Shown piece by piece: positions 6,223-57,430 of a stretch of 64,000 bases of DNA; positions within the stretch are counted from its first letter, which is position 1, and every line of letters starts with the position of its first letter. Made by a program: the position numbers and the translations under genes. The DNA is from Lineus longissimus (Eukaryota > Nemertea > Pilidiophora > Heteronemertea > Lineidae). The stretch is from positions 17,865,292 through 17,929,291 of the forward strand of contig NC_088312.1 of assembly GCF_910592395.1 (NCBI RefSeq), written 5' to 3'. The notes under the pieces were generated by a model. That model was not told the DNA's origin. It did not search any database and worked only from the letters and a program-made list of their open reading frames with translations.

Positions 6223-8067
6223 TTAATGGTTGAATCTCACCAATAACTGGGTCACTTGGTGTTTTCTCGGTTGTATGATCGGGAACTTGGCTTCATAAAA
6301 CAAATTTTCAGCAAAGGTGAGACGACCGTTGCTACGAAGAATGAAATCAGCATCTAACTTTGGCGTCAGGCCCGCTATCTGACTGGACTTTTGCAGCTCC
6401 CTTCCATGGCATAACGCGCTGTACTCCTCTGCAAAGGCTTCTTTCTGGCACTGTCTAATCAAGAGTAACTCAGCTGCCTTCACTTCCTCAACTTCCAGTT
6501 CTCCTTTCTTCCTCTCAGTGGGGGTTGCCTGACAATTTCCGATAAACCGCTGCACCCATGCATGAAGACGTGTCAATCTCTGCCAGCTGGAGAATCGGGA
6601 AGGGTCTAGTCTTATATCTGCAAGCTTCATAACTTGTTTCAGGCTGCTCTTTTCTTTCAGACTCAGGTAGCTGCTCTCATTCTTCATTTCATCCTGGACT
6701 TCATCTCCCTGTTCCACAACTCTCTCGGGCCACTCTGATGGATCCCTCTGAAGAAACTCCGGGCCGTCCCACCATAGGCTCAACTCCACTAAGTCCTTTG
6801 CTCTTACTCCTCTTGAAGGCAGGTCTGCAGGGTTTTCTTTGGTTGGCACATATCTCCACTGTTGCGGGTTTGTATGTTGTTGTATCAGGCCTACTCGGTT
6901 GGCAACGAAAGGTTTCAGTTTTCTGCTTGGTCTCTTTATCCACCAGAGGACGTTCTGGCTATCACTCCAAAAATTCACCTCGTTGACATTGCTATCCAAT
7001 GCTGCTACAATGCTCAGACTGAGTTGAAGTCGTAACACAGCCGCCATCATGTCAAGTCTTGGGATGCTCACAGAGGTTAACGGTGCTACTTTGGTCTTGG
7101 ATGCTACAATCCGTGTGGCCACCATTCCACTCGCATAGGTGCTTCTTGCATACACCACAGCCCCGTATGCATCCTTCGAGGCATCGCCAAAGGTGTGAAG
7201 TTGGAAACCTGTCATCTCCTCAGCTAGCTGTAAGCATCTAGGAATCCTGGCCTGAGCTAACTCTGTCATTTCAACTATCCAATCCCAAGCTTTCTTTTCA
7301 ATTTCTTCCGGCAGTTCTTCATCCCACTCAACGCCACACATCCACACACCTTGCATGATGATTTGTCCTTGGATATCATATGGCGACATCAGCCCAAGGG
7401 GATCAAAAATGGTTGCTATTCTTCGCAGTAGGCTCCTCTTTGTAAGCTTGAGATCAGCAGCAGGGGGCGTCAGCTGATAAGCGAAAGCGTCTTCTTCAGC
7501 CTTCCACAGCACTCCAAGGACCTTTTCTGATGGCAAGTATCCCTCCTCCAAATTGATCTCTGAAGCTCTATCTTCATCTGGTATGATGGCTAAAACTTCG
7601 GGTGAGTTGAACAACCACTTTCTGGCATGCATCCCAGCTCCTTTCCACAATGCTGATAAATCTCTGTACAGCTTTTTACCCTCTTCATCATCGTTCACAG
7701 AACCTAGACTGTCATCCATATAGGTTGACTTCAAGATCGTCTCTGCTGCTCTTGGGTACTGCTTCCGATGGGCTCTTGCATGCTCTTGGGAAACCAACTG
7801 TGCCAGGAACGATGAGCTGTTGATTCCAAAAACCAGTCTCTGGAACTCGAATGTCTCTGGACCTCTGGTCCTGTCTAGGTCCCGCCATAGAAATCTGTGA
7901 TATCTTTTATCTTCTTCTTCCAAGGTAATCTGGAGGTACATCTCTGCTATCTCACATACTATGGCGACAGGGTATCTTCTGAATCGCAATAAAAAAAGTT
8001 CATTTTGAATCTTCGGTCCCATGTTTATCTTGTCATTAAGGCTGTCCCCGGCAACTCTATCTTCCAA
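6223..8067 (-). pseudogene. BEL reverse transcriptase / RNase H, N-terminus deleted
   Basis: An open stretch of about 614 codons starts in the middle of the palm/fingers at SLNDKINMGPK. Motifs seen are VCEIAEMYLQI, KRYHRFLWR, the catalytic YMDDSL, IFDPLGLMSP and FLAQLV. RNase H follows with FGDASKDAYG, IPRLDMMAAV, FWSDSQNVL and NPADLPSRG. The usual RNase H glutamate (RLEL) is Asp here. The block before SLND (YLPHHPV and the KVRxVFD region) is missing, and gag-linker sequence NDNLRAFWK abuts it directly. That implies a deletion of very roughly 300-400 bp. Confidence 0.9.
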
Positions 8068-8074
8068 AACGCTC

Positions 8075-9159
8075 TTAGGTTATCATTGATTTCCTGCAGC
8101 AATGGTGGATCTTTAGTAAAGAAGCTGTAGACCATGTTGGTTGCCTCCCTCTTTTGGCCAAAGGGAGCCCTACCGGACCAATGCATGTCCATCCCAATCT
8201 TGTCTGTCTTGCTGTCGGTTCACCAGGTCGACCATTGACGTCTCTAATGCTTTGGTGTAGCTCACTGTAGTCTGCGCCAATCAGGAGATCCACTGAATTC
8301 CTCTTACCAATCTTTGGGAACTGGATATCTTTCAAATGGCTATATTGACTATGTTGCAAAGACCAGTCTGTAGCTCTCAAATCTCCCATTACTTTATCAA
8401 CTGTCTTGGCCCAAATCTTCAAATCCACCTGTCGGTTCAGACTTTCTATTCCCACCTCAACTGGCATGGTGGTGAATGTCTTCAGCTGTCCGTTGAGGAC
8501 GTTAACTGGTTTGTTCAATTTCTCCCTGAACTCCGAGTTCTGCAGCTAAGTTTATATCCATATATGTTGAGGTACTTGCATCATCTAACAAGGCGTTAGT
8601 CTTTATTCTTTTCCCTCCATGCTTCACTATGACTGGAACAATTCTCAGCGCAATTTCACTTGAGTTCTTTGATGCCAATGTCACTGTCGCCATCGTGCTC
8701 TCATCCGTGTCGCGGTTGTTATCACTCCTTTCCATGGGTTGACGACTCTCATCTCCGTTTGCTTTTCCATGCAGCAACCGGTGATTTGTGTTTGCAGCCA
8801 TCTATCTTGCATTGCCGTGTCCTGGGGCACTTCTCTGCCCTGTGACCATTACCACTAAGACATCGGTAGCAAAGTTTCTTTTCCTTGGCTGTTTTCCACC
8901 GCAGGTCCACTGACATTGCCTTGAAACTGTCACATTCTCATGCTCCATGCTCCGAACCGCACACGTTGCATGATCTGGTGTATTTTCCCATGGCTCCGGA
9001 CTGAGACTGTGATTGACGGTTTGTGCTACGGTGTGACGTGACAAAGCTCCTATCTTTTCTTTGGTCTTTCTTGGCAAAATCCCTGACACCGTTGATGGTT
9101 TCCATGGCGTTGACTTGAAACTCGGTTTCTTCATTGTCAAATTCTCGAAGCGACATCAC
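8075..9159 (-). pseudogene. BEL zinc knuckle and aspartic protease region
   Basis: The zinc knuckle reads CYRC, then LSGNGH, then RAEKC (CX2CX5HX4C), after a TGA at about 8938. The protease follows at about 8801-8502 with the active-site motif LLDDAST. After a frameshift near 8520 comes the post-protease block with LLIGADYSELHQ and GWTCIGPV, typical of BEL polyproteins. Further frameshifts lie near 8795 and 8140. The retropepsin would process the polyprotein. This copy cannot make it intact. Confidence 0.85.
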
Positions 9160-32281: not shown

Positions 32282-32980
32282 CTAATCGTCATCATTTTGA
32301 TTGTTTGCTGCACGATTTCTGATGGCGTATTCATTGCAGCAGTCGGCATCACCTTGACACCCGCAGAACAGTGTACACGGCAGGTGTGCTTGATAGCACT
32401 GACACTGAGCTGTGGCACAGGGCCTGTCTTTGCTACAGCCACACCTAATCAACTTTAGTACTTCGGGGGGAGCTAGCTGAACTCTTGTAGGAATTGTCAC
32501 CGGAACGAGTACTTTAGAATCAGCGTCACGCAAATATCCAAAATGACAAGGGTCCATGCTAGGGGGTTCTGGATAGATAGCTGCATTCCATATGGCCGTC
32601 TGTATGTGAGCCCGTCTCACATTTTCCTCAGATAATTCTGTAGTCGGTGGGAGGGACTTGAGTTCTGGTGCCTTTGTGACCTTCAGTTTCCCCATTTTTC
32701 TCGACCACACATCTATTCTGACTTCGGACATCGACACCTTTGTCTTTAGACTCCCAAAACAGCCGGCCATGAATGAAGTACATTCCTTTATGATGTCGTC
32801 CATGTCGAATGTGTTGTCACCGAGCTTCGTTAACGTATGTCCACTTTCCAAAGTTTTGATCATGGTCGCTTTGCCAATTCCATAGGGATGTGCCACAGTG
32901 TCACACCCTGACAGCGCATGTGCTGCGAGTAACTGGGGAGTTAGGTGGGCATGTTTGCGAGCAGTGGCACCAATTTTTCA
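32282..32980 (-). pseudogene. transposon-borne protein with HALSGCDT motif and Cys-rich tail
   Basis: The minus frame stays open for about 230 codons with no good ATG. It starts KIGATARKHAHLTPQLL and continues AAHALSGCDTVAHPYGIGK. Two Trp motifs follow (VDVWSRK-type and TAIWNAAIYPEP). The C-terminus is Cys-rich: CGCSKDRPC, CQCYQAHLPC, CGCQGDADCC. The HAxxGCDT signature followed by a CxC-rich tail recurs, as far as I remember, in uncharacterised invertebrate transposon proteins. The Cys pattern suggests zinc or DNA binding. A TGA lies upstream, so the N-terminal two thirds are missing or sit in undetected exons. It is probably the remains of this element's transposase or partner. Confidence 0.55.
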
Positions 32981-37489: not shown

Positions 37490-39340
37490 CTTTACCTTTA
37501 GGAGTTCAGAGCTGAAATAGGTATCATTGAAGCTCCCATGTCATTCGGACTCAAAAGAACTCGCAAATAAATTTGCTGAATTCTTTGAGGACAAAGTGGG
37601 GAAGATCAGATCTGACATGTCAGTTCAAGATCCGAGTGGAGGCGAGTCTGCAACCGGTGTGGGCCGGTGTAGCTCATTGACAGCCTTCGAGCCTGCCTCC
37701 GGTGAAGACATTGCACACATTATCGGCAAATCTCCATGTTAATCCTGTCAGCTTGATCCGCTTCCAACGTGGCTGGTCAAAGGAGCAACCCATGAACTAC
37801 TCCCCATCCTAACAGACATCATCAATGCTTCGCTTAGAGATGGGACAGTTCCAGAGACACTGAAAGTTGCACTTGTAACCCCACTACTAAAGAAGCCCTC
37901 GCTCGATCCTGAGGTTCTGCAGAATTATCGTCCTGTTAGCAACCTACCCTTCATCTCTAAGGTCCTTGAGCGAGTGGTTGCGAGTCAGCTCATCAAATAC
38001 ATGGACGAAAACAGCCTCCATGACACATTTCAATCGGCATACAAGGCATTCCACAGCACTGAAACAGCGTTGCTGCGGGTCCAAAATGACATTCGGCTCA
38101 TGGTAGACAAGCATGGTGCAGCGTTCCTGATACTCCTTGATTTGAGTGCCACCTTCGACACTGTCGACCACGATATTCTCCTGATGAGGATGAGGACTAG
38201 GCTGGGCATCGACGGAACTGCGCTAAACTGGTTCAGGTCATACCTCTCACTTGGATACATATCGTGATCAATGGAAGCAGATCTGCTCCTCGTACGCTGC
38301 GCTATGGTGTCCCACAGGGCCCAGTACTTGGGCCTATTCTTTTCCTTATCTATATCCTACCACTTGGCGACCTGATTGACAGTTTCTCTACCCCACGTCA
38401 TGGCTTCACTTCGCTGACGACACTCAAGTCTATGTTGCATTGCCAATAGGGCAAGCACAGCAGAAAATTGTTCAGTTAGAGGATTGCCTGCTCAAGATTC
38501 AGGACTGGTTAGCCAAGAACATGCTCAAGGGGAACCCAACGAAAACTGAACTCAAGTTGTTTGGCTCTCAACAAGCTTTGAACCGTCTCAATATAGAGTC
38601 CCTCTCAGTAGCGGGGATTGACGTCCAAGTGACAACAGGACCAGTGAGAAACCTGGGAGTTCTTTTCGATCAAACAATGTCAAATGGAAAATCAAGTGAA
38701 TACTGTTGTAAAATCTGCAACGTACCATCTTCGGAACATTGGCCGGATACGCAATTGTCTTACCGAAAGTGCAGCTAAACTCCTGATCCAATCCCTTGTG
38801 TTAACAAGACTGGATTATTGCAACAGCCTCCTTGCCGGCATTACCAAGAACCTAATGCACAAACTCCAGCTTACACAAAATCATGCAGCCAGGATAATAA
38901 CTCGAACTCGTGGTGACCAGCACATTACACGCGTGCTTAGGAGGCTACACTGGCTTCCTATTCCTCAAAGAATTGACTTCAAGGTGTCACTCCTTTTGTT
39001 TAAGTGCAAAGCTGACCTTGCCCCATGCTATCTATCAGATATTGTGCCACTGTATGAACCCAGCCGATCCCTGAGGTCCCAGAACCTAGGTTTGCTCCAA
39101 GTACCCAGGTACCGCCTGGCATCATATGGTGGCAGAAGTTTTGTGGTGTATGCTACACAACTCTGGAACAGACTAGACATGAATGTGCGAAATGCTCCAA
39201 CTGTGAGCACATTCAAAAAGGTGCTGAAGTCGAGATTATGGTGACTTTGTTTTCAAAGCGCAGCCGAGCAATCATACGTTATTGGATAATTGCGCTATAT
39301 AAGTCTTATTTGAATTGAATTGAATTGAATTCGTCTTGTT
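37490..39340 (+). mobile_element. L2/CR1-type LINE, 5'-truncated, decayed
   Basis: Reverse transcriptase pieces appear in order: NYRPVSNLPFISKVLERVV, FQSAYKAFHSTETALL, DLSATFDTVDH, YGVPQGPVLGPILF, FADDTQVY (about 38412, in a shifted frame), NPTKTELKLFG, then the C-terminal LHWLPIPQRI, LASYGGRSF and WNRLDM blocks ending at 39244. Several frameshifts and one stop (after GKSPC) break it. The endonuclease domain is absent. The 3' end is GCGCTATATAAG followed by TTGAA repeats to about 39340, which is typical of L2-like elements. It is inserted in the sense opposite to the host receptor gene. Confidence 0.9.
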
Positions 39341-45127: not shown

Positions 45128-47080
45128 CATTATAAAATTTGTGTGGGGCGCCTTTCCACCGAACAAATCTTGCTCAAGGCGCTGCCCCCTCAAAGTGCCT
45201 CGCGTACAGCCAGGTCTTTAACTGACATTTGAATTTAAGGACATCTGAAGCATCCTGAATTTGAGATGGGAGTTGATTCCGAAGAGATGGAGCGCAGGCA
45301 GAGAAAGCCCTGTCGCCAAACGAGGTCCCAGTTCGTTTTGGCAGCAACTTGACAAAGGATACTAACGACCTCGTGTGGTGAGTGGCCTCTGCAAGTGGGA
45401 GATTTAAGTAGCCAGGGGCTAGTCCACGAAGCACCTTGAAACAATGGAGCAGCACCTTGAACACGATCCGGGACTTAATTGGCAGCCAGTGAAGTTCCTT
45501 GAGTACAGGCGTGATATGGTCACGCCTGTACGTCCTCTTTATAAGCCTCGCAGCCCTGTTTTGCACCAGCTGAAGAGGCGCAAGTGTCTTGGCCGGCAGC
45601 CCAAAAAGCAAGGCATTATTGGAATCAAGTCTGGAGGTCACAAAGGCATGGACAAGCCTCCCAGTGCACGACTGGTTTAGGTACCGTCTGACCCGGCCAA
45701 TCTTATACAAGCCATAGTTGGCTGCCGTACAGACTTTCTGCACCTGGGTTTGCATGTCCATACCCTCATCCAACCAGACACCAAGATCTCGCACACTGCC
45801 CGATTTAGGATCCATACTCCATCAACAGTTACTACCTGCACCGATCCGACCCTCCTCCGACTCACAATGTTCATCATATCTGTCTTTGGGGCATTCCAAT
45901 CTCTAACATGTGCTATGCAAGACTCCATCCTGGACACAACCTCGTCACGCTCAACACCCTCGCCGCACTTCATAAAGCCAAGAAGCTGGTTATCATCAGC
46001 ATATAGTTGGAACGGGACTTCCCATTGACGCATGATGTCTCCCAGTGGCAGGGTGTAGACCGTGAAGAGAATGGGCCCAAGAACGGAGCCCTGCGGTACG
46101 CCATATCTAAGAGGAACAGGAACGGAACCTCTGCCTTCAACAGTCACAGACAACCTCCGTCCATGGAGATATGATGAAAACCACTCCAAGACAGTCCCAT
46201 CTAGATAAAGTCTTTCCTGGAGCCTACGAATGAGTATCTGCTGGCCAACCGTATCAAAAGCGGCTGATAGGTCCAATAGAACAAGGACCACCTCCTTACC
46301 ACTATCAAGACCAGTGAGAATGTCATCTGTAACATTGAGCATCACAGTTTCAGTACTGTGACACTGCCGATATGCTGACTGATTAGTGTCAAACAACTCG
46401 TAGGTGGACATATGCTCTTTCAGTTGCGATGCCACAACACGCTCGATCAATTTAGAGATAAACGAAAGATTTGAAACCGGTCGGTAGTTGGCAAGAATGT
46501 TTTTGTCGAGTGATGGCTTCTTACTTGGGCAAATTTAAGTGATGATGGAACATGGCCACTCTCGAGCGACTTGTTAACGATCAGGGTAATGGCTGGGAGG
46601 AGAGATTCCAAACAGCTCTTCAGCAACCATGTTGGAATGGGGTCATGGCTGCCCCCCTTTGCTGGGAGCGACGTGATAAGTTTACGAATGTGATCTACAG
46701 TCACAGGTGTGAATATTTCGAATGCGGGTATAATTACCTGCATCATCATTCGAATTGTCCATGATGGCTTCCTCTGTAGAAGCATCCATGTTCTCACGGA
46801 TCTTGCTAACCTTCCCGATGAAGAAGCTGCTGAACTGCTCAGCCAGATCTTCTAAATCCTGATGCTCTGGAAGAGCATCAGTGGGCGATTTTCCTATCAA
46901 CCGATCCACAACCTTGAATAGGTCCCTGTCACGAGATTCTGCGATCTTTGATCTATGATAGGAAATCTTAGCTTTATCAACTAAACACGTCACCGCATGT
47001 TCTCTGTACAAAACAGTCGTACCGTTCGTTCAAGGTTACCGTCCAAAGTGCTGATACGAAAATCGTCCTTAATTCGGATT
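45107..47080 (-). mobile_element. L2/CR1-type LINE, 5'-truncated, decayed
   Basis: On the minus strand, an endonuclease-to-RT linker (LAEQFSSFFIGKVSKIRENM) leads into HDPIPTWLLKSCL, then QSAYRQCHSTETVML, DLSAAFDTV, YGVPQGSVLGPILF and LYADDNQLL. The C-terminal half (45815-45174) has SFGDRAFSACAPSLRNQLP. A deletion of about ten residues after VRDW and several frameshifts break the frame. The 3' end is a GGCGCC-rich hairpin and TGTAA repeats. It is the same broad clade as the copy at 37490-39340 but a different family, judged by the tail and wording. Confidence 0.9.
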
Positions 47081-47520: not shown

Positions 47521-47794
47521 GGGAAACTCACACTCACCACATCGTTTCGTACAGGCCTAAAATTTTCAAAGTTCACATTTGGTCATTCCTAGAAGTGGGC
47601 GGGTGGTTTTAAAAGAACAGCCATAATGTCGTGGGCTAATATGGGTATTACGTGTAGTGCTACCAGTCTTTTTATGTACGCGCGCATTACCATGTGGGAT
47701 GTGATAATATTATATAGGAAGTGACTATTTGGCAAGCCCGGCTTGCCAAACAGCGACTTTTTTTTGTCCTGAATGGAGAGCCGAACTCATTAAT

Positions 47795-47804
47795 ATTTAT
47801 AAAT
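47795..47804 (+). promoter_or_regulatory. possible TATA box of the MULE gene
   Basis: TTTATAAATG lies about 85 bp before the start codon and inside the element. The assignment is positional only. Confidence 0.3.
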
Positions 47805-47888
47805 GCCCAAGGGCTCATTAATATTCATAAGTTAGTAATGCGCTGGAGAGGCTCAAGTAAGTGAGGCTGGAAAGGGAGAAGGGAAAAA

Positions 47889-48175
47889 ATGGCGGAACCC
47901 TCGCCACCGTTGCCGATTTCGTCAGTAGAAAAGTTGCGCGTGGGGGCTTCGTATGGCTCTTTTGAAGATATGGAGAAAGCTCTTGATAAATATAAAGAGA
48001 CAAGCTTGACTGTTTTCGTGAGAAAAAGCTCGAGGACCACTCAGGCCGCCAACGCTCGCCTCAAAACCGACGAGGACAGATATGACCCGAGGCTGAAATA
48101 TGCGTATGTACGTTGGTGCTGCAAACATGGCGGGAATCACAAAACTTCCAGTACGGGACAAAGGCCACATCAAAC
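47889..48175 (+). CDS. MULE transposase gene, exon 1 (zinc module start)
   Basis: The ATG at 47889 follows an A-rich context. Residues 1-95 end in YAYVRWCCKHGGNHKTSSTG and QRPHQ. Cys77/Cys78 and His80 begin the FLYWCH/FAR1-like zinc module completed by exon 2 (Cys102, His126, His128). The donor GTAAGT at 48176 splits a Thr codon after two bases, and the next exon supplies the third. The wording matches ZSWIM1/ZSWIM3-like proteins. It acts in the nucleus as the DNA-binding end of the transposase, by family. Confidence 0.85.
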
Positions 48176-49442
48176 GTAAGTTGAATCCATGAATGATATC
48201 GTATTAACGTGCAAGTCAGATAGTAATCATCCATCCTTTTTTCCTCTGACCGTGGCCTTGGGCATTGGCCAAACAAAACCATGATTGTGTGCATATGCCT
48301 GCCTACACACAGCTGTCACTGCACAGTACATGAGAAGGCAGCAATGATAGGCCTTGCATGCATGGGGCATACGATTTGTACGTGGGAAAGTGTCACTCAT
48401 GTGGCTGTGATCCTGTGGCCAGGTTGCTGTTCCGTATACTTGGCTCGGCATGCTTTGACAGTACATACAATGATGACAATGCAGTGAGTAGACGACTAAG
48501 GGTACGGCAACTCCCCATCCCCCCCTATGGCGGAAACACTGCAGTCAGTACACACACAGTTGGCTGGGCTGCGCTTGGGGGCCTATCCATCATGTCCATA
48601 TTGCCGGGCATGCTTGCCGGGCGCCGGGGGGGGGGGTTGGCCTAACTATTTTTTCCCCAACTGGGCTCAACCCAACGGTTCATCAATTGCCCGGGAGCAA
48701 TGGCAACGGTTCATCCATTGCATAAGTCAACACTATAGGGAATTTTACCCTCTGATGTAGATGAGATGAGGGGCATATTCAAGGCATGGCCAAGGTCCCC
48801 CACACCCCCCCCCCCATGTTGTAAAGATTTCGTAAATTTGGCATTAAGATTTAGAACTACCTTTGAATAAACTGACCGTAAATTGGCCGCCCCCCCCCCC
48901 CCTGAATTGCCAAAGGGCACATTTCCTTTTGGACTTGTAAAAACTTACTTTAAAAGAGTATACGAAGCGAAGACAATGAAAGAGACTACCAGTGAGTGTT
49001 GCCTTGGGCGAGATTTGAACCGGCAATTAAGCAATGGGCCAGTTGCGGCCACCCCCTTGCTAGATTCTTGTCTCCAGGTAAACATCAGTTTAGTCTAAAG
49101 TACATTCTTTGATATGGAATCCATGTCAAAGTCCTGAATCGGAAATTGACGTTTTTATCAGAAAAAGACATACTTTGGCATGTTTGGGGTTTTGGGCAGT
49201 AATTTTTGGGGAAAAGAGCAGAATTGAACATTTGATGGGGGTCAGATACTTCTAAAAATTCAAAAGAAATATTTCTATGCTAATTTGGGGAAATTTTTTG
49301 GCTAATTTGGGGACATCTTTTTGGCTAATTTGGGGACATGTGGCGCCTCCTACACCATATAACGGTGTAGAAACTACATGTATGCAACTGAAAGGCCTGT
49401 AAGTCATCCTGCTCACCTTCATGACCTTGCATGCGTGCAAAG

Positions 49443-49665
49443 CATGAAAGCATGGGGATAATCTTGATTATCCCCATGCTTTCTTGCAAAAACTATGAAT
49501 AATCCCAATGCTCCTCCCTTTGCAATTGCATGCAGCCAGCAACTCATACACATGCTTCTTTGCTATGACCAATTAATCATCCCCATGCTTCTCCCCTTGC
49601 AGAAATTATTTCCATACTTCCTTGCTACAACTAGAGTCATCCCATTGCTCCTCCCCTTGCACTTG
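49443..49665. repeat. 65-bp imperfect tandem repeat, cluster 1
   Basis: About four units with CATCCCCATGCT and CTCCCCTTGCA recur. Related units lie at 50175-50335 and, inverted, at 55005-55285, all in introns of the MULE gene. Confidence 0.75.
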
Positions 49666-49788
49666 AAGAGTTTCATCGCAAATGTGATAACCCTTTTCGG
49701 CCATTTTGAGAAAAATGGCTTCAAAGTTTGGAATCTAACTGAAAATGTATTATAGAAAATTTTGGATGTTTTCTGTCATAAAAGTTTA

Positions 49789-50032
49789 GGCCGGGTCTAT
49801 TTGGCAAGCCGCTCGCCGAACAGCCATCTTTTTTTGTATTGTTTGGAGAGCCGCTTGCCAAACAGCACTTAAAAGCCACCCTGTTCGGCCAGCCGGGCTT
49901 GCCAAACAGGTAAAAAATCTACCCTGTTTGGCGAGCTGGAGACTTTACTTTAATATCAATGAGTTCGGCTCTCCATTCAGGACAAGAAAAAATCGCTGTT
50001 TGGTAAGCCGGGCTTGCCAAGTAGTCACTTCC
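49789..50032 (-). mobile_element. 244-bp MITE of the same MULE family
   Basis: Its left end (GGCCGGGTCTATTTGGC) equals the right end of the big element, and its right end is the inverse of the big element's left 80 bp. It is therefore an internal-deletion derivative in opposite orientation. AAAAGTTTA flanks both sides (49780-49788 and 50033-50041). It shows that the family transposes and recognises these ends. Confidence 0.9.
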
Positions 50033-50174
50033 AAAAGTTTAACTGTTGGTTGACCCGAATGCTCTAGTCTAAAATTTGGAGGATCAAACATCCTATGGGC
50101 AATGCCGTGGCATGGTTAAGTCCAAAATGTTAAAAAAGGTGCTTGAGCGTTTTGCTATGAAACTCTTTACTTGC

Positions 50175-50335
50175 AGGATCGCCCCAATGCTTCCTGCACT
50201 ACGACTACAGTGCTGAGTCATCCCCATGCTCTTCCCCTTGCATGCAGAAAAATCGCCATGCTTCCTTTCTCTATAACTACACTGTCACTGACTGAGTCAT
50301 CCCCAGCCATGCTCCTTCCTTTGCATGAAGGCTCA
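50175..50335. repeat. 65-bp imperfect tandem repeat, cluster 2
   Basis: Two to three units are present in the same orientation as cluster 1. Confidence 0.65.
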
Positions 50336-50469
50336 TCATCCCGTACTTCTTCGTCTCAGTCTGGGATCCTGACAATTTGATTTGGATAAAAGATTTGCCC
50401 AGTCTGTCTTTGTGTTGCATACACAGCGTTGGCATTTTCTCATCATATTATTCATCTTTCTCTTTTCAG

Positions 50470-53400
50470 GACCTACAAGCTTGGCTGCCCGGCCGCAATC
50501 TTTGCGACTGCGGATCGCAATTCAAGCCGTCTTGTGATAAAAACCTTGAATGATACCCACAACCACGCTGTAAGCAGTGACATTTACATGCACTACCCTG
50601 TAAATCGTGAAGTGGACGATAAGCTGAAAGCTGTTTGTCGTGTCATGTACAACCTAAAAGTGCCTGCAGGGGTTTTCCGAGATAAACTGATTGAGATATC
50701 TGGAAAAGAATTTACAGCTAAGGATATCTTAAATCTCAAGTCAAAGATCCGAATGGACAACTCAGACAGTGGTTCAAAGCTGAACCTACTTGTTACAGAA
50801 CTAGAAGCCATCCTTGAGCAGTTTCCAGATGCATTCATCCGTTTGAAGATAAGTGAGGTGGGCCTAGTTGAAGCGATTTTCATTCAAATGCCTGTGATGA
50901 GGGATTCGTTCATAAAGTTTCCGGAAGTGTGTTTCCTCGATGCTACGTACAGGGTAAATGAACATAAAATGCCACTGTTCACGTTGATGGTCGAGGATGG
51001 ACTTGGTCACAGTATCCCTGCAGCACATTTCCTGGTGTCTGCAGAAGATCAGGAAAATATTGATCATTGTTTTGATTTGTTCAAGCAGTCGTTGCCAGAG
51101 GGAATGCTTGACAAAACAACGTGTGTGGTCATTGACAAGGACTTAAAAGAAGTGAATACGATCAAGAAATTCTTTCCCGGTGCCACAATCCATCTGTGCT
51201 TATTTCATGTGCTGAGATGTTTCCAAAGGGCCACAAAAGACATTCCCGTTGCAACTAAAGAAGGCGTACGGAAAGTATTAGAAAACATGGCTTTTTGTAG
51301 TGAAGAAACTCAGTATGATAAACTTTACGATCAACTGAAGGAACTAGCCCCAGAGACATTCCTTACAAAGTTTGCCAAAAATTGGGACGAATGCAAAGAA
51401 ATGTGGTGTTTTTGCTGGCGAAAGAGGACAATGAACCTTGGTAACAAAACGACTAATCGTCTAGAGTCCTTTCATCAGAAATTGAAGATGAATTTGAATA
51501 GCTCAAAAACTCTGGCAGAATGTATCCATGAATTGGTACAGCTTTCAGAAACCAAAAAAGGCCAGATCAAACATAAGACTAATATTGGGTCTTGCTCCAT
51601 TTCCTATGATGCCACTGAGCTGTCAGCCGAAGGTCATGCTATATACGAGACGTGTTCACCATTTGCAGCAGAGAAAATTGTTGTGGAGCTAAAAGGCATG
51701 AGGAGAATGCATACTACCTTTAAATCTACGCCCTTGAAAGGAAATGGCTATGCTGTGCAGTCTGCAAGTGGAGGAAGTGTCTTCAGTGTTTGTAGCGACA
51801 TGAAAACATGTAGTTGTCACTTTTTCAAGAATCATGGTTTGCCCTGTCGACACATTTTCTTTGTTCGGAAGGTTGAAAGTACTGAACTGTTCATTCCAGA
51901 TCTTGTATCGCGACGATGGAGGAAAGAATATCAGACTGCATCAGTTGCCACTGTCCCGCTTCCTGTTCCTGCAACAATGCACGACAATGTCGTGTTAACC
52001 GTCCAGGCTACCGCCAGCAAAACGAAGAAGACATTAAACAGGTGTCAAAAGTACAGGGAAGCCTTAGGTGTTTGCAAAGAAATAGCTTCAGTAATTTGTG
52101 AACATGGACAAGATGTCTTCAATGGATACATTTCAAACCTCAAAGACTTCAAAGCTTGTGTTTTAGGTGGGAAGGAAGTTGACATTCTCGATGTTAATGC
52201 AGGTCCGTCTTGTGATCCACAGCTCACAAACTCACTCATGTCTGTTGCTGAAGTTCATACTGGTATGTCTTGTGTGCCTGAAATTTCTGAAGAAGACACG
52301 CTTTGCCCTGAGGATTTAACATGTCATCATGATCTCAACAACAACGATGTCGATCCAAGCAAGTCTTCTGTGCAGCCAGATAAGAGCCTGAGAGATACTA
52401 GTATGCCAGATGATCTGTCGTACTACGGAGAATGTTACAGTGATTCACAGTTAGATATTGATACAAATGTACGGAGTCGTGCCCCAAGTGAGAAACAAGG
52501 AAACGCTTGTTTTTCACCGTGTTTAGGATCAGCATCAAGTACCCAGGTTACCAGTAATCTGCCCGTGAATGCCCATTTGGACTCCATGAAGGACATTTTA
52601 GGTGAAAAACTGCTTCCTGATCTGGCTTCTACTCCAAGGCTTGCAGAACAGACATTTTCAACCTCAGTTTCAGTGGCTGAATTTAAGTCCTTGTTAGAGC
52701 AAATACACCTAGTTGAAAAACCAAAGGTTCGTGGGCGGCCTAAAGGGAAAACACAATCAGTAACAGGAATTCCAAAGAAAATCGAGAATAAACGAAAACA
52801 AAGTCAAGCGCGAAGCCAGAATAAGAAAGCCAAGCGAGCTGACAAGATCAAGGACAAGACAGATTCGACCAAGAAGAAGGGAGCCAAGAAGATACATGTA
52901 GATGACAAGATCAAGACCGATGTGCTGATAGACTTGTCAACTCTTGATGATTTGGAAGATGACATCGGACCTGGGGAAGATTTGAGAGAGGTGATCAAGT
53001 ACGCTCTGCAGGGTTATTTGGACGACCTTCCAGATGGAGAACTTGAGCACTGCTTTGAAACATTGAAGGAAGAATATTTTAACATGAAAAGAGCCCGCAA
53101 CAGTATGGACAGATTTGTGCTATGTCTTAATGACCCAGTGCACTCTTTCTTTTTGGAGTCATCACGTATCTTCGAAACAGAAATGGAAGACATCGCAAGT
53201 TATCTTTGCCTATCGAATAAATGGAAGTCGAGATTTGTTTCTTTTAAGCAGGGAAGTGGAGATTACCTCATGCTTGTGTGTAGTGTGTTAGCCAAGGCAT
53301 ATTCGCTGCAAGTGTTGCCGTCAGCTATTATTGCAACACTACATGGTATACCTCACCACCTGAAAGACGGCGAACAGTATGTTAAAAGGGCAGAGGAGGG

Positions 53401-53497
53401 TGTTGATGAAACAGTGAAGCTGGCCATTGGTAACAACACGTTAAGAGACACAGAATTCAAGACTCTGCTTCAACCTGACGGGATGTTAAATGATAAT
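50470..53497 (+). CDS. MULE transposase gene, exon 2 (DDE core, SWIM, AT-hook)
   Basis: This exon of 1009 full codons encodes residues 96-1105 of the predicted 1319-residue product. First comes the rest of the zinc module (YKLGCPAAI, HNH at 126-128). The MULE catalytic core shows FLDATYR (Asp253), VVIDKDLKE (Asp318 or Asp320), the CLFH motif (Cys339, His342) and TTNRLESFH (Glu428), the expected DDE set. The SWIM finger is Cys543, Cys545, Cys555 and His557 (CSCHFFKNHGLPCRH). A long Ser/Asp-rich linker leads to an AT-hook (RGRPKGK, about residue 850) and Lys-rich stretches that could import the protein to the nucleus. By family it cuts and pastes the element. Acceptor TTTTCAG at 50469, donor GTAAGA at 53498. 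No internal stop is present. A domesticated ZSWIM-type host gene is the alternative, but the flanking target duplication argues against it. Confidence 0.9.
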
Positions 53498-53902
53498 GTA
53501 AGACATGTTATAGTATTCTTTTAAAAAATTTGTTCTGAGGTTATACAGCTTCTCTCTAGAGAGAGTTTGGAGAGAAAAACAGGGAACAGACTTTTGTTAC
53601 AGCAGATACAATCAAAAGCAGTACTCAATGGATGACATGAATAACAAAATGATGCCTGCAAAAGTAAAAGTCTCTAAGTAAAATTGTTTTTAAAAAGATA
53701 CTAAAAAACGAAGTGTTAACGAGGGCATACATGTATATCCCAGACTGTGCTGCTCTAGAGTTGAACATTAGATGATGTATGCGAGGCGAGGAGCATGAGA
53801 TCATTTTTGTCCAAAATTGTATTGCACAATAACATGAAAACTTGTTTTTGATTTTATGCTATAAGTGGCTGGTATAATCAAATAGTATTGTTTGAATTTC
53901 AG

Positions 53903-54031
53903 GTTGTGAGTGCTTTCCTTTCTGTGCTGTCGAGACAGGCAAATTCAAAGATCCAAAACACTGCACTCGTCTTGCCATCCTTCCTGGCATCAAAATGGGA
54001 GAAGAATGACAACACGTGGATTTTCAAAAAT
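53903..54031 (+). CDS. MULE gene, exon 3 (start of Ulp1-like domain)
   Basis: 43 codons (VVSAFLSVLSRQ, then LVLPSFLASKWEK) are framed by TTTCAG and GTGAGT. Joined to GMLNDN at the end of exon 2, it reads like the beginning of Ulp1/SENP-type domains (LND, then a helix). Phase 0 on both sides. Confidence 0.82.
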
Positions 54032-54362
54032 GTGAGTATTAATGTACATTTTAATGTACGTGTACGTGTAGTGTGAACCTAGAGCTCTGCATTTCGAACT
54101 TGATCACATCTTGTCTGCTATCTGTCCTCCATCGGTCAACAATGGTTGCACATTTGCTCAGCGTTGAGTCAAGCAGCTTTAAACTTGTTGTGTATGTCTT
54201 CTTATGACAACATGACCTAACATGCAAAAAATTATTGCACTTTGACCAACTATTACTTTCTGCCTTTCAAGCTCTTGGTGGCCATCTTTCAAAAATATTA
54301 TTTTGTCGATATCGAGCAGGTATCAGTTATGTGTCACAGTATTGCACATTGTTCTTTTGCAG

Positions 54363-54517
54363 GTTGATGTGGAAAAGTTCACCTGGGTATTTGTTCCAAT
54401 TTGTACCAATAACCACTGGATCGTGCTAGTGGCTAACCTTCAGCAGTCATCAATTGGAATTTTGAATTCAATTCATTGGCCTGGCAGCCGTGTCGAGATA
54501 TTCTTGTCTGGTTGGAG
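54363..54517 (+). CDS. MULE gene, exon 4 (protease His region)
   Basis: It encodes WVFVPICTNNHWIVLVANL, with His1166-Trp1167 as the catalytic His of the C48 fold, then IGILNSIHW. Where Ulp1/SENP enzymes have the catalytic Asp (LDS), this protein has Asn1183 (LNS). Acceptor TTTGCAG, donor GTAAGC after two bases of an Arg codon. Confidence 0.83.
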
Positions 54518-54852
54518 GTAAGCTTACATGTACAGTCTGTTTGCAGCTGGTGTGGTGTTTTGAATTTCAGTCAGTATCACTACACCATATTTATTAAGAT
54601 GTACGGTAAACAATTGAAGTTGCAGTACAGGTCGCGTGTTGATCTTGATCCTTTAAAACACAACAAAATGTTTGTCATCAAGGCTCGTCTTTTTTAAATT
54701 AGTATCAAAGGTTACATGTATATTAGGATGAGGTGGTTTGCTGGCCAAACCACAATAAACTGATTTGAACTTATGCATTTTAAAAAGGAATGTCTTGAAA
54801 GCACTGATTGAAATAATTGGCGAAGTTTGAGCAGTAATATATTTTGTTTCAG

Positions 54853-54955
54853 AAACTTCATGCATGCCCGGGGTGATACCAGACCATGGAAATCCAAATT
54901 GTATGAATGCAGCGAGCAAGAAGACGGCAGCAGCTGTGGAGTCTTTCTTCTGATG
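54853..54955 (+). CDS. MULE gene, exon 5 (protease Cys region)
   Basis: One base completes the Arg codon. Then NFMHARGDTRPWK and EQEDGSSCGVFLL follow, giving the oxyanion Gln1222 and catalytic Cys1228 of a C48 cysteine protease. Acceptor GTTTCAG, donor GTATGT, phase 0 at the end. Confidence 0.83.
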
Positions 54956-55004
54956 GTATGTTCAAAAACATCGATCATTGGAGCATGTGCATGACACACT
55001 GTAG

Positions 55005-55285
55005 CACAGGAATGATCATGAATGAAAGGGGATAACTCATAGTAGCAAGGAAGCATTGGAGTGATTATGCATGCAAGGGGAGGAGCATGGGGATGACTAA
55101 TTGAAGTTCTAGCAAGGAAGCATGGGAATGAATATGAATGCAAGGGGAGGAACATGGGGATGACGCATTGAAGTTGTAACATTGAGTTGACTTAATTTAG
55201 TTGTACCAAGGAAGCATGGGCATGACTATACATGCAAGGGGAGGAGCATGGGGATGACTCATTATAGTTGTAGCAAGGAATAGTT
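55005..55285. repeat. 65-bp imperfect tandem repeat, cluster 3 (inverted)
   Basis: Four to five units with AGCAAGGAAGCATGG and GCAAGGGGAGGAGCATGG lie in intron 5. They are inverted relative to the clusters in intron 1. Confidence 0.75.
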
Positions 55286-55392
55286 CATGGTAGAATATCT
55301 AAGCACTGGCACTGCTAAAACTGACAGCATTTTGGATATTGTCTTTCCTCTTTCCATCCATCCAACAAAAGAATATTTTTCATTCATTGCAG

Positions 55393-55650
55393 AATGTAGA
55401 GGCTATTTTGCTGGATGTGGTACCATCTGTTATGCGCCAGTTCCATGCCAGGATGTATCGCCAATACATAGTTGGTAGATTGCTCAAGGATGGTGTGGAA
55501 GACGTCAACCAGAAATGCGACCTTCCCTTCTGTAAGATGGAGGACAACAAGGATCTAGTGCAGTGCATTGAATGTGATCGCTGGTGCCACCTATCCTGCT
55601 GTGAAATGGAGCAGAGGCCAGAGATATTCTGTTGTTTGTATTGTATTTAA
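55393..55650 (+). CDS. MULE gene, exon 6 (PHD finger, stop)
   Basis: It encodes the end of the protease domain (AILLDVVPSVMRQFHARMY) and a complete PHD finger: Cys1276, Cys1281, Cys1292, Cys1295, His1300, Cys1303, Cys1315, Cys1318, with Trp1298 two residues before the His. The stop is TAA at 55648. PHD fingers read histone H3 tails, so a chromatin-targeting role is an inference. Acceptor TTGCAG. Confidence 0.88.
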   Translation, partial: NVEAILLDVVPSVMRQFHARMYRQYIVGRLLKDGVEDVNQKCDLPFCKMEDNKDLVQCIECDRWCHLSCCEMEQRPEIFCCLYCI

Positions 55651-57239
55651 ATGATGTTTTAGATACTTTTACTTTAATAGCACCTTTCATAAATTTTCAA
55701 GAACATGTCTTGTGGTCTGGCGTGCGTAACAACTTGAAATTGCAGCTGCTGAAGATGTTCAGCTGAAGATGTATGTACTGCTGTCCACTTGTGTCAGTAA
55801 TTGTTTTAATCTACTGTTGTACTGTTGTTTTCATGTATGACCATCAGACCTAGTTCCAACATAAGTTTTCATCGATGTCTGTAGTCAGGAGTGAGGAGTT
55901 GAAATAGTTGCAGTTCTATGATATTAGACTTACAGTCAACCACATAAAGTTGGTCACATGGAGGGGAGAAGCAATTTTAATTTGATTTATCTGAAGTTCG
56001 ACATGTGATTGCTGTGAGATGATCTTGGAGAGAGGCATCAGTTGTTGACAGGAGTAGTTCACATTCTCTCTCAACAGACACTTAATGATCGTGCCATATT
56101 TTAGTTTTAATACATAAATTATGATTAGAGAGCATGCATAGGTGGTCTGGGGATGTGATTTAAATGCTCATTTGTCTTTCAATATGCCCAACATGTATAA
56201 ATAGAATAAAAGCTATTATGAGACATTTAGATCAGAATTTTTTGCTGGCTCTACTATAAGACATTCAGGTTAGAATACTTTGCTGGTTCTACCATTTAAT
56301 GCACACGCCAGTATAAAGTGATGGTGTTTTTGTGGTAATCTGTGCCTTGCATGCACAAGGTGGGGAGGGTACTGAAAATTGGAAAATTTCTTTGTGCATC
56401 TCTAATGTTGTTCATATTCAGTTCATATATATCACTTTTCATACAATTTTTTGGAATAATATGTTTATCGTAGAAATTTGCTGTTTAGCTTTATAAATAA
56501 AGAGTTTATTCCTTTTATTTGAATCTAATCTTGTCGTTTATGACTCGCCCGACTCTTCACTTCTTCTAAAACTGACCTATTCCCACCATTACAATGGAAA
56601 TGCCTTCCTTCACTCGGAAAATCTCTATCAGACACTTTGCCTTGCTGTGTTGATTGACGGAAAGATGCCTTTTGAAGATGAAGCCCACTTTCAAGTCCAG
56701 TGTCAATGAATGCACCATAAAGTGTGCATGGCTTCTTCATAATGAAATGTGTGCCAACTTTAAACTTCATGATTGAAGTTGACATAGCCTGTCTTCAAAA
56801 AGGATGAACCGATGACTGCAGCAGTGCATAATATGAGACAGGAGATGTGTGCTGTAGTGTAACTTGCCTTCCTTGCTGCTGCCTATAGTACCTTTAAAAT
56901 TTCGAAATTACACTGTAACCTCGTACCCAGTGTAACACATGAGCAGAAATCCCAATGTAAAATGACGCGAGAATCCCTGGGGACGAGGTTGCTGACACCG
57001 GGGCCATTCGGTTATCTGAGACCGGGTGTATCTGTCAGTATTTTCAGATTATGCACAAAAGGGTTTTCAGATTATGCACAAAACTTCAATGATCGAACGT
57101 ACGCACTCGGCAATCGAGTGCCAATGCCGTCATTTCGCTTCAGAGGAATTTGGTTACTCTAAAGGAAAAACCGCATTAACAGACTATTATCAGATCAATA
57201 CGCTATTATGCATATTCATGAGTAGGCGTGGTTTATTCA
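55651..57239 (+). other. 3' region of the MULE element
   Basis: AATAAA signals occur at 56205-56210 and 56496-56501. A minus frame at 56525-56785 (86 codons, GAFIDTGLESG) has no established family and may be chance. Confidence 0.5.
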
Positions 57240-57421
57240 TCGGCTTGCCAAACAGGAAAGAAATTTTTCTCTGTTTGGCAAGCCCGGCTCTCCAAACAGG
57301 ACAAAAAAAGATGCCTGTTCGGCGAGCGGCTCGCCAAATAGACTATTTGGCAAGCCCGGCTCTCCAAACAGGAGAAAAAAAGATGCCTGTTCGGCGAGCG
57401 GCTCGCCAAATAGACCCGGCC
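57240..57421. repeat. right terminal region of the MULE, duplicated module
   Basis: A module of about 70 bp (CTATTTGGCAAGCCCGGC to CGGCTCGCCAAATAG) is present twice in tandem. It contains short palindromes built on GGCGAGCGGCTCGCC. Confidence 0.8.
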
Positions 57422-57430
57422 TATTATATA

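Follow-up and report, generated by a model that had tools for sequence, protein, structure and literature searches.

In hydra and lancelet, Mutator (MuDR) transposons with Ulp1 domains have been described (Bao et al., 2010, PMC2836005, citing Repbase Reports of 2008 and 2009). In the same paper, Figure 1e is, by its legend, an alignment of Ulp1 and PHD domains from Ginger1 and Mutator transposases, Table 1 lists Ginger1-9_HM with Ulp1 and PHD, and the question is raised of what SUMO- and ubiquitin-protease domains do for transposases. Here we describe a 9705-bp Mutator-like element (MULE) at 47717-57421 of a 64-kb stretch of the Lineus longissimus genome (contig NC_088312.1; hereafter the window, to which all coordinates refer), whose gene is predicted to encode a transposase core, a SWIM finger, an AT-hook, a C48 (Ulp1) protease domain and a PHD-like finger in one protein. 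With a probability of about 0.85, we consider it to be an animal Mutator-like DNA transposon that is autonomous, is related to ZSWIM1/3 and encodes a single transposase of 1319 residues; that it is a MULE with this fused tail we regard as very likely. A well-bounded, apparently intact animal MULE with a putatively chromatin-facing tail offers a single testable protein for that question.

Elements of this kind are known and thinly documented, and the present one is a good new example of combinations that have been reported before. The preliminary description of the locus held that Ulp1-MULE fusions were known mainly from plants and that an animal element with an AT-hook, PHD and Ulp1 was, as far as its author knew, not a standard description; this claim of novelty is not supported, as the hydra and lancelet Mutator elements with Ulp1 and the alignment of Ulp1 and PHD domains from the two kinds of transposase were in print by 2010 (PMC2836005). 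The hydra and lancelet elements are, like this one, animal MULEs with Ulp1, a likeness by description only. Ginger1 elements (e.g., Ginger1-9_HM) carry Ulp1 and PHD at the transposase C-terminus, as here, but have a Gypsy-type integrase core and a 4-bp CCGG-like duplication, whereas this element has the core of a MULE and a duplication of 9 bp. Plant Ulp1 MULEs likewise combine MULE with an Ulp1-like domain (Hoen, 2006; van Leeuwen, 2007; as cited in PMC2836005). Rehavkus shares the 9-bp duplication and a PHD finger in the transposase; unlike the present element, it is listed with a minisatellite and without Ulp1 (Table 1, PMC6446971). In the same table, hydra MuDR-6_HM (OTU) and 14 Phytophthora MULEs (SET) have an added enzyme domain, but not C48-PHD. 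This MULE survey mentions PHD for Rehavkus only, and its main text contains no occurrence of 'ulp', 'c48' or 'peptidase' (Dupeyron et al., 2019, PMC6446971); the main text of a 2026 arthropod survey contains none of PHD, Ulp, C48 or SWIM. No nemertean member is described among the ten listed of 220 literature matches, subscription papers and Repbase being outside the search. Vertebrate ZSWIM1 and ZSWIM3 have N-terminal, RNase H-like and helical domains in common with the element, as judged by Pfam models; the element differs in having transposon ends and a duplication on its flanks, neither of which a domesticated ZSWIM1/3 gene would have, and in its C48-PHD tail. Vertebrate ZSWIM1/3 are genes of the host and are not known to carry a tail of this kind.

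Direct reading of the window shows the element between two exact copies of a 9-bp target-site duplication, TATTATATA, at 47708-47716 on the left and 57422-57430 on the right, as the preliminary description had claimed. The identity is exactly 9 bp, without extension in either direction. Two random 9-mers of the window are identical by chance at a frequency of 9.8e-6, and 9-mer pairs at the element's own spacing match at 2 of 54,278 position pairs. The left terminal repeat (47717-47797, plus strand) contains internal palindromes, and the right one (57271-57421, minus strand) includes a tandem duplication of a 72-bp unit (57271-57342 and 57343-57414, 97% alike, with short palindromes). When the two ends were compared with each other, they were ~80% identical over 59 columns, i.e., terminal inverted repeats are present, but 4 of the 8 outermost bases differ (GGAAGTGA versus GGCCGGGT). 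Therefore, the 'matching ends' of the preliminary description hold for the inner parts and not for the outermost bases.

Since the ends had originally been chosen partly by the repeat, a second line of proof was sought, and it is given by a 244-bp non-autonomous element lying inverted within intron 1 (49789-50032, minus strand). This element has both ends of the large one, matching the left end over 81 bp at 93.8% and the right end over 79 columns at 89.9%. It begins and stops on the same terminal bases, both of its 8-base ends being those of the large element, and has an exact 9-bp duplication of its own, AAAAGTTTA (49780-49788/50033-50041). At both elements, the length of the duplication falls within the range of MULEs, 8-11 bp and typically 9 bp (Table 1, PMC6446971). 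Since the 244-bp element has the identical two 8-base ends, their asymmetry is a shared trait, and since the same pair of ends recurs with a separate duplication, the ends are fixed independently. A transposon family would be expected to leave such a pattern, in which two insertions share one pair of ends but differ in their 9-bp duplications.

The gene lies on the plus strand and consists of six exons (47889-48175, 50470-53497, 53903-54031, 54363-54517, 54853-54955, and 55393-55650) totaling 3960 nt of coding sequence, i.e., 1319 residues with a single terminal stop, and GT-AG borders are found in all five introns. The previously proposed model of six exons, canonical splice sites and a frame open over 1320 codons was thereby reproduced. 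Exon 1 holds the ATG and the first part of a ZSWIM3_N/FAR1-like zinc domain, and exon 2 the remainder of that domain, the RNase H-like core, the helical domain, SWIM, the AT-hook, a linker and the start of C48. The C48 domain continues through exon 3, exon 4 (H1166 at 54414; Asn1183, in the catalytic Asp position, at 54465) and exon 5 (Q1222; nucleophile C1228 at 54935) and ends in exon 6, which also contains the C4HC3 PHD-like finger (55516-55644) and the stop. Exon 2 is open over 1009 codons (chance ~2e-23, with the stop frequency taken from introns) and runs without a break from the transposase as far as the LND motif within C48; the N-terminal part of this domain (53438-53497, plus strand) was placed by alignment to yeast Ulp1 and SENP1. 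By motif scan only, a TATA-like box lies 91 bp upstream of the ATG (47798-47804, plus strand), and a motif scan also found two AATAAA past the stop codon, at 56205 and 56496 (56205-56501, plus strand). Promoter-like and polyadenylation-like motifs accompany the six-exon gene, and its domains share one reading frame.

Homologue searches, in which candidates were limited to 0.55-1.75x the query length, returned 2, 1, and 2 proteins, the query itself being among the last two. The spread of the family is surely under-sampled by them; ZSWIM1/3 proteins, by their lengths, presumably fall outside this range. Viral contigs scanned with A2, P0001 and A7 gave 62, 1, and 32 pattern stretches, respectively, and no confirmed relatives. 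The nearest protein, P0001 (LOC135484821), is from L. longissimus itself, with 99% identity over 59% of the query, four mismatches in residues 1-777 and an identical splice junction 1; it is very probably transposon-derived. In public data it is annotated as an uncharacterized protein. Two predicted proteins of the sea cucumber Apostichopus japonicus, P0003 and P0004, known here as protein predictions alone, carry the same C48-PHD tail. P0003 (1324 aa) shares the MULE core, the C48 with Asn and the PHD-like finger with the element, and differs in having an ALS2CR8 N-terminal domain and, as read from its sequence, no RGRPKG AT-hook. P0004 aligns with residues 338-1318 of the window protein at 27% identity and shares the helical domain, SWIM, the AT-hook, the C48 with Asn and the PHD-like finger; its model is without an N-terminus. 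When the window protein was aligned with both, no gap fell within 5 residues of the other four junctions. The tail was compared in pairwise and tail-only alignments, because the end of P0001 and some of the linker are set wrongly in alignment A1 (rows: window protein, P0001, and P0003), as is P0003 in A4. The fusion is taken to be real on two grounds: a single exon, exon 2, reaches from the transposase into the beginning of C48, and the tail recurs in the two sea-cucumber proteins. A split of protease and PHD from the transposase, which the preliminary description had named as the thing to look for in homologues, was not seen in those found: P0003 keeps the fusion, and so does P0004 in the part that begins with the helical domain. 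The evidence supports an autonomous, apparently intact MULE that encodes the transposase, the SWIM finger, the AT-hook, C48 and the PHD-like finger in a single protein.

The Pfam hidden Markov model search proposed earlier for the 1319-residue model placed MULE and C48 above their cut-offs and PHD below, with SWIM unmatched. In the head, the window protein matches ZSWIM1-3_RNaseH (104 bits, 6e-30) and ZSWIM1-3_helical (32 bits), both above cut-off, and MULE PF10551 (62.7 bits, 5e-17; cut-off 27.6). The MULE/ZSWIM1-3 RNase H-like core (50855-51214, plus strand) contains D253 (50939), D318 (51134), C339 (51197) and H342 (51206), and the third catalytic residue, E428, lies at 51464-51466 (plus strand); D253, D318, C339/H342 and E428 are invariant in A1, and E428 also in A5 (rows: window exon 2, P0001, which is almost the same, P0003, P0004, and a relative from the tea plant). 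The Asp-Asp-Glu (DDE) core of the MULE type is therefore borne out, by PF10551 together with the invariant D253/D318/E428 and C2H motif. The N-terminal domain had been called a FLYWCH/FAR1-like module; the FLYWCH label is rejected, there being no Pfam match to it in the window protein, and FAR1 is sub-threshold (22.7, cut-off 28.1), the domain being ZSWIM3_N instead (58 bits, 1e-15, above cut-off). For the SWIM finger (51809-51853, plus strand), the CxCx9CxH pattern stands, with C543, C545, C555 and H557 invariant throughout A5, two of whose five rows are nearly identical; the profile evidence is mixed, as SWIM has no Pfam match in the window protein, is sub-threshold in P0001 and exceeds the cut-off (PF04434) in P0004. 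The AT-hook also holds, with its RGRPKG core at residues 850-855 (52730-52747, plus strand) and a counterpart, KVRGRPKG, in P0004.

In the tail, Peptidase_C48 (PF02902) scores 43.0 bits (6e-11; cut-off 20.7) in the window protein, and a profile of the three tails (those of the window protein, P0003, and P0004, the members counted below) finds SENP1 at 2.4e-19, with SENP8, which we take to be a NEDD8 protease, far behind at 0.0036; together these confirm the C48 domain claimed earlier. Active-site His1166, Gln1222 and Cys1228 are present, with equivalents in all three members. The PHD-like finger has the C4HC3 ligands C1276, C1281, C1292, C1295, H1300, C1303, C1315 and C1318, all eight of which are kept in 3/3 members, and the tail profile matches PHF13 and KDM5B in their PHD fingers at 3e-5. 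In the alignment with PHF13, Trp1298 falls on a Trp that is presumably a cage residue, and several of the matches to the finger in PDB are assumed to read histone H3 trimethylated at lysine 4 (H3K4me3). Structure predictions gave a mean pLDDT (predicted local distance difference test score) of 31 for P0004 with two relatives and 53 for exon 6 with two relatives, and neither was used.

Several observations weigh against an intact autonomous element with a working tail. Within the 64-kb window, only one full-length copy is present in the DNA, candidates for further copies being the 244-bp derivative (window DNA) and P0001 (protein search). The latter could be another locus, another allele or a copy in a sister species; it departs from the frame once past residue 777 and is without the tail, its last 14 residues being the other-frame reading of window DNA at 52513, and the P0004 model begins inside the transposase, so that its full head is unseen. 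A scan of the whole element for AATAAA gave six plus-strand motifs (48866, 52787, 53216, 54754, 56205, and 56496), and the claim that polyadenylation motifs stand solely after the PHD exon was rejected; four of the six precede the end of the gene (48866 in intron 1, 54754 in intron 4, 52787 and 53216 in exon 2), and the motif alone therefore cannot fix the transcript end. The first ligand pair of the PHD-like finger is an unusual C-x4-C and PF00628 PHD gives 11.7 and 14.3 bits in the window protein against a cut-off of 24, so that the PHD finger of the preliminary description is supported by its C4HC3 ligands and profile match and falls short by Pfam. In C48, the catalytic Asp of Ulp1/SENP1 is Asn1183, as it is Asn in 3/3 members, and Met1101 stands before the LND motif where SENP1 and both sea-cucumber proteins keep Trp.

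We take His-Asp-Cys to be the catalytic triad of C48, and Gln its oxyanion residue, so that Asn1183 is a departure from the family. The C48 domain could accordingly be a SUMO-binding or structural module that lost catalysis through the Asp-to-Asn change, in which case the tail would merely tether the transposase; we give this a sizeable minority of our belief. The shared Asn and the Met1101 that replaces the Trp of SENP1 favor such a pseudo-protease, while the active-site His, Gln and Cys, kept in 3/3 members, speak against it. Since members from two phyla have the same Asn, the change, on sequence comparison, is not the decay of one copy. A Cys-His-Asn site is moreover of the papain type, Asn being allowed as the third residue in the canonical form of the papain-like triad (PMC10318531), and pS273R, which belongs to PF02902 (PMC10318531), has an active site described as His168-Cys232-Asn187 (PMC9866604). 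On balance, we judge the chance that the predicted tail acts as a SUMO protease to be about even. Asn in place of the catalytic Asp, alike in members from two phyla, poses a sharp enzymatic question.

For the autonomous MULE favored here, the following course of events may be proposed. The N-terminal zinc domain and the AT-hook would bind the element ends, and the DDE core would excise and insert the element with a 9-bp stagger. The PHD finger might then dock on histone H3 tails, probably H3K4me3, and at donor or target sites C48 might hold silencing or repair proteins that bear SUMO, or strip SUMO from them, the C-terminal tail thus acting as a chromatin-tethered SUMO-protease-like module. 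The suggestion of the preliminary description that the transposase edits or reads chromatin is plausible in the light of these domains. The tail might serve in counter-silencing, in target choice or in repair, and we give counter-silencing or target choice odds below even. If the tail does counter SUMO-dependent silencing or steer insertion, deleting one C-terminal module should alter silencing or target choice. Alternatively, the tail may aid DNA repair after excision by local removal of SUMO from repair factors, a role that Bao et al. (2010, PMC2836005) proposed for transposase domains of the Ulp1 and OTU types; however, this would leave the PHD finger and AT-hook without a function, and we consider it rather unlikely.

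Comparison of heads and tails bears on a possible exchange of tails. The tails of P0003 and P0004 are 50% identical to each other and each 40-41% identical to that of the window protein, and they formed the closest pair in 998 of 1000 column resamplings. Over the helical-SWIM heads, P0003 and P0004 are 16.5% identical and each is 27-28% identical to the window protein; P0003-P0004 was never the closest pair in head resamplings, which favored window-P0004 in 523 and window-P0003 in 477. This hints at one tail joined to different heads, in a set of three sequences that includes two gene predictions, of which one is truncated. A bolder proposal, which we think improbable as a whole, is that the ~240-residue C48-PHD tail might be a portable counter-silencing cassette with a Cys-His-Asn site, exchanged among unrelated transposase heads and stripping SUMO from silencing complexes at H3K4me3-marked sites; the heads concerned would be those of ZSWIM3-headed and ALS2CR8-headed MULEs here and perhaps Ginger1.

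Two further readings would deny the locus its identity as a single fused MULE gene. In the first, the protease and PHD exons come from a host gene of their own that was captured, or wrongly joined, on the downstream side of the transposase, for which one may cite the AATAAA motifs in introns 1 and 4 and exon 2 and the acquisition of host gene fragments by MULEs (PMC6446971). Considering that exon 2 runs continuously from the transposase to the LND motif and that the same order is found in P0003, and in P0004 from the helical domain on, a separate protease transcript is unlikely, and we give this reading very little credence. The second, a domesticated ZSWIM1/3-like host gene lying between unrelated repeats, draws on the best Pfam matches of the head being to those host-gene families and is the least probable of all, rejected on the ends shared with the 244-bp element and on the duplications, an exact 9-bp duplication here bordering ends that delimit another, independent insertion as well, and opposed by the near-identical, frame-leaving P0001 (though this could be an allele) and by two more proteins with this tail in one sea cucumber.

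Within the MULE, introns 1 (49464-50330) and 5 (55019-55281) contain one repeat in opposite orientation, flanking exons 2-5. No other match to this repeat was found in the window at E values up to 1e-4. The duplex between its 75- and 80-base stretches has a computed energy of -90.9 kcal/mol, the minimum among 495 random pairs from the window being -46.1, and such pairing could favor back-splicing (circular RNA) or double-stranded RNA.

An Rfam scan of the window gave no matches. Elsewhere in the window lie a BEL/Pao element at 6223-8079 (minus strand), with a 618-codon frame, a Pao retrotransposon peptidase at 158 bits and a sub-threshold reverse transcriptase, and a 231-codon open frame at 32282-32977 (minus strand) with a Cys-rich end and sub-threshold Pfam matches only. 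Reverse transcriptase fragments occur at 37743-38267 (plus strand; RVT_1, 47.5 bits) and at 45677-46534 (minus strand; RVT_1, 81.4 bits), both probably from elements without long terminal repeats, and the latter ends ~1.2 kb left of the MULE.

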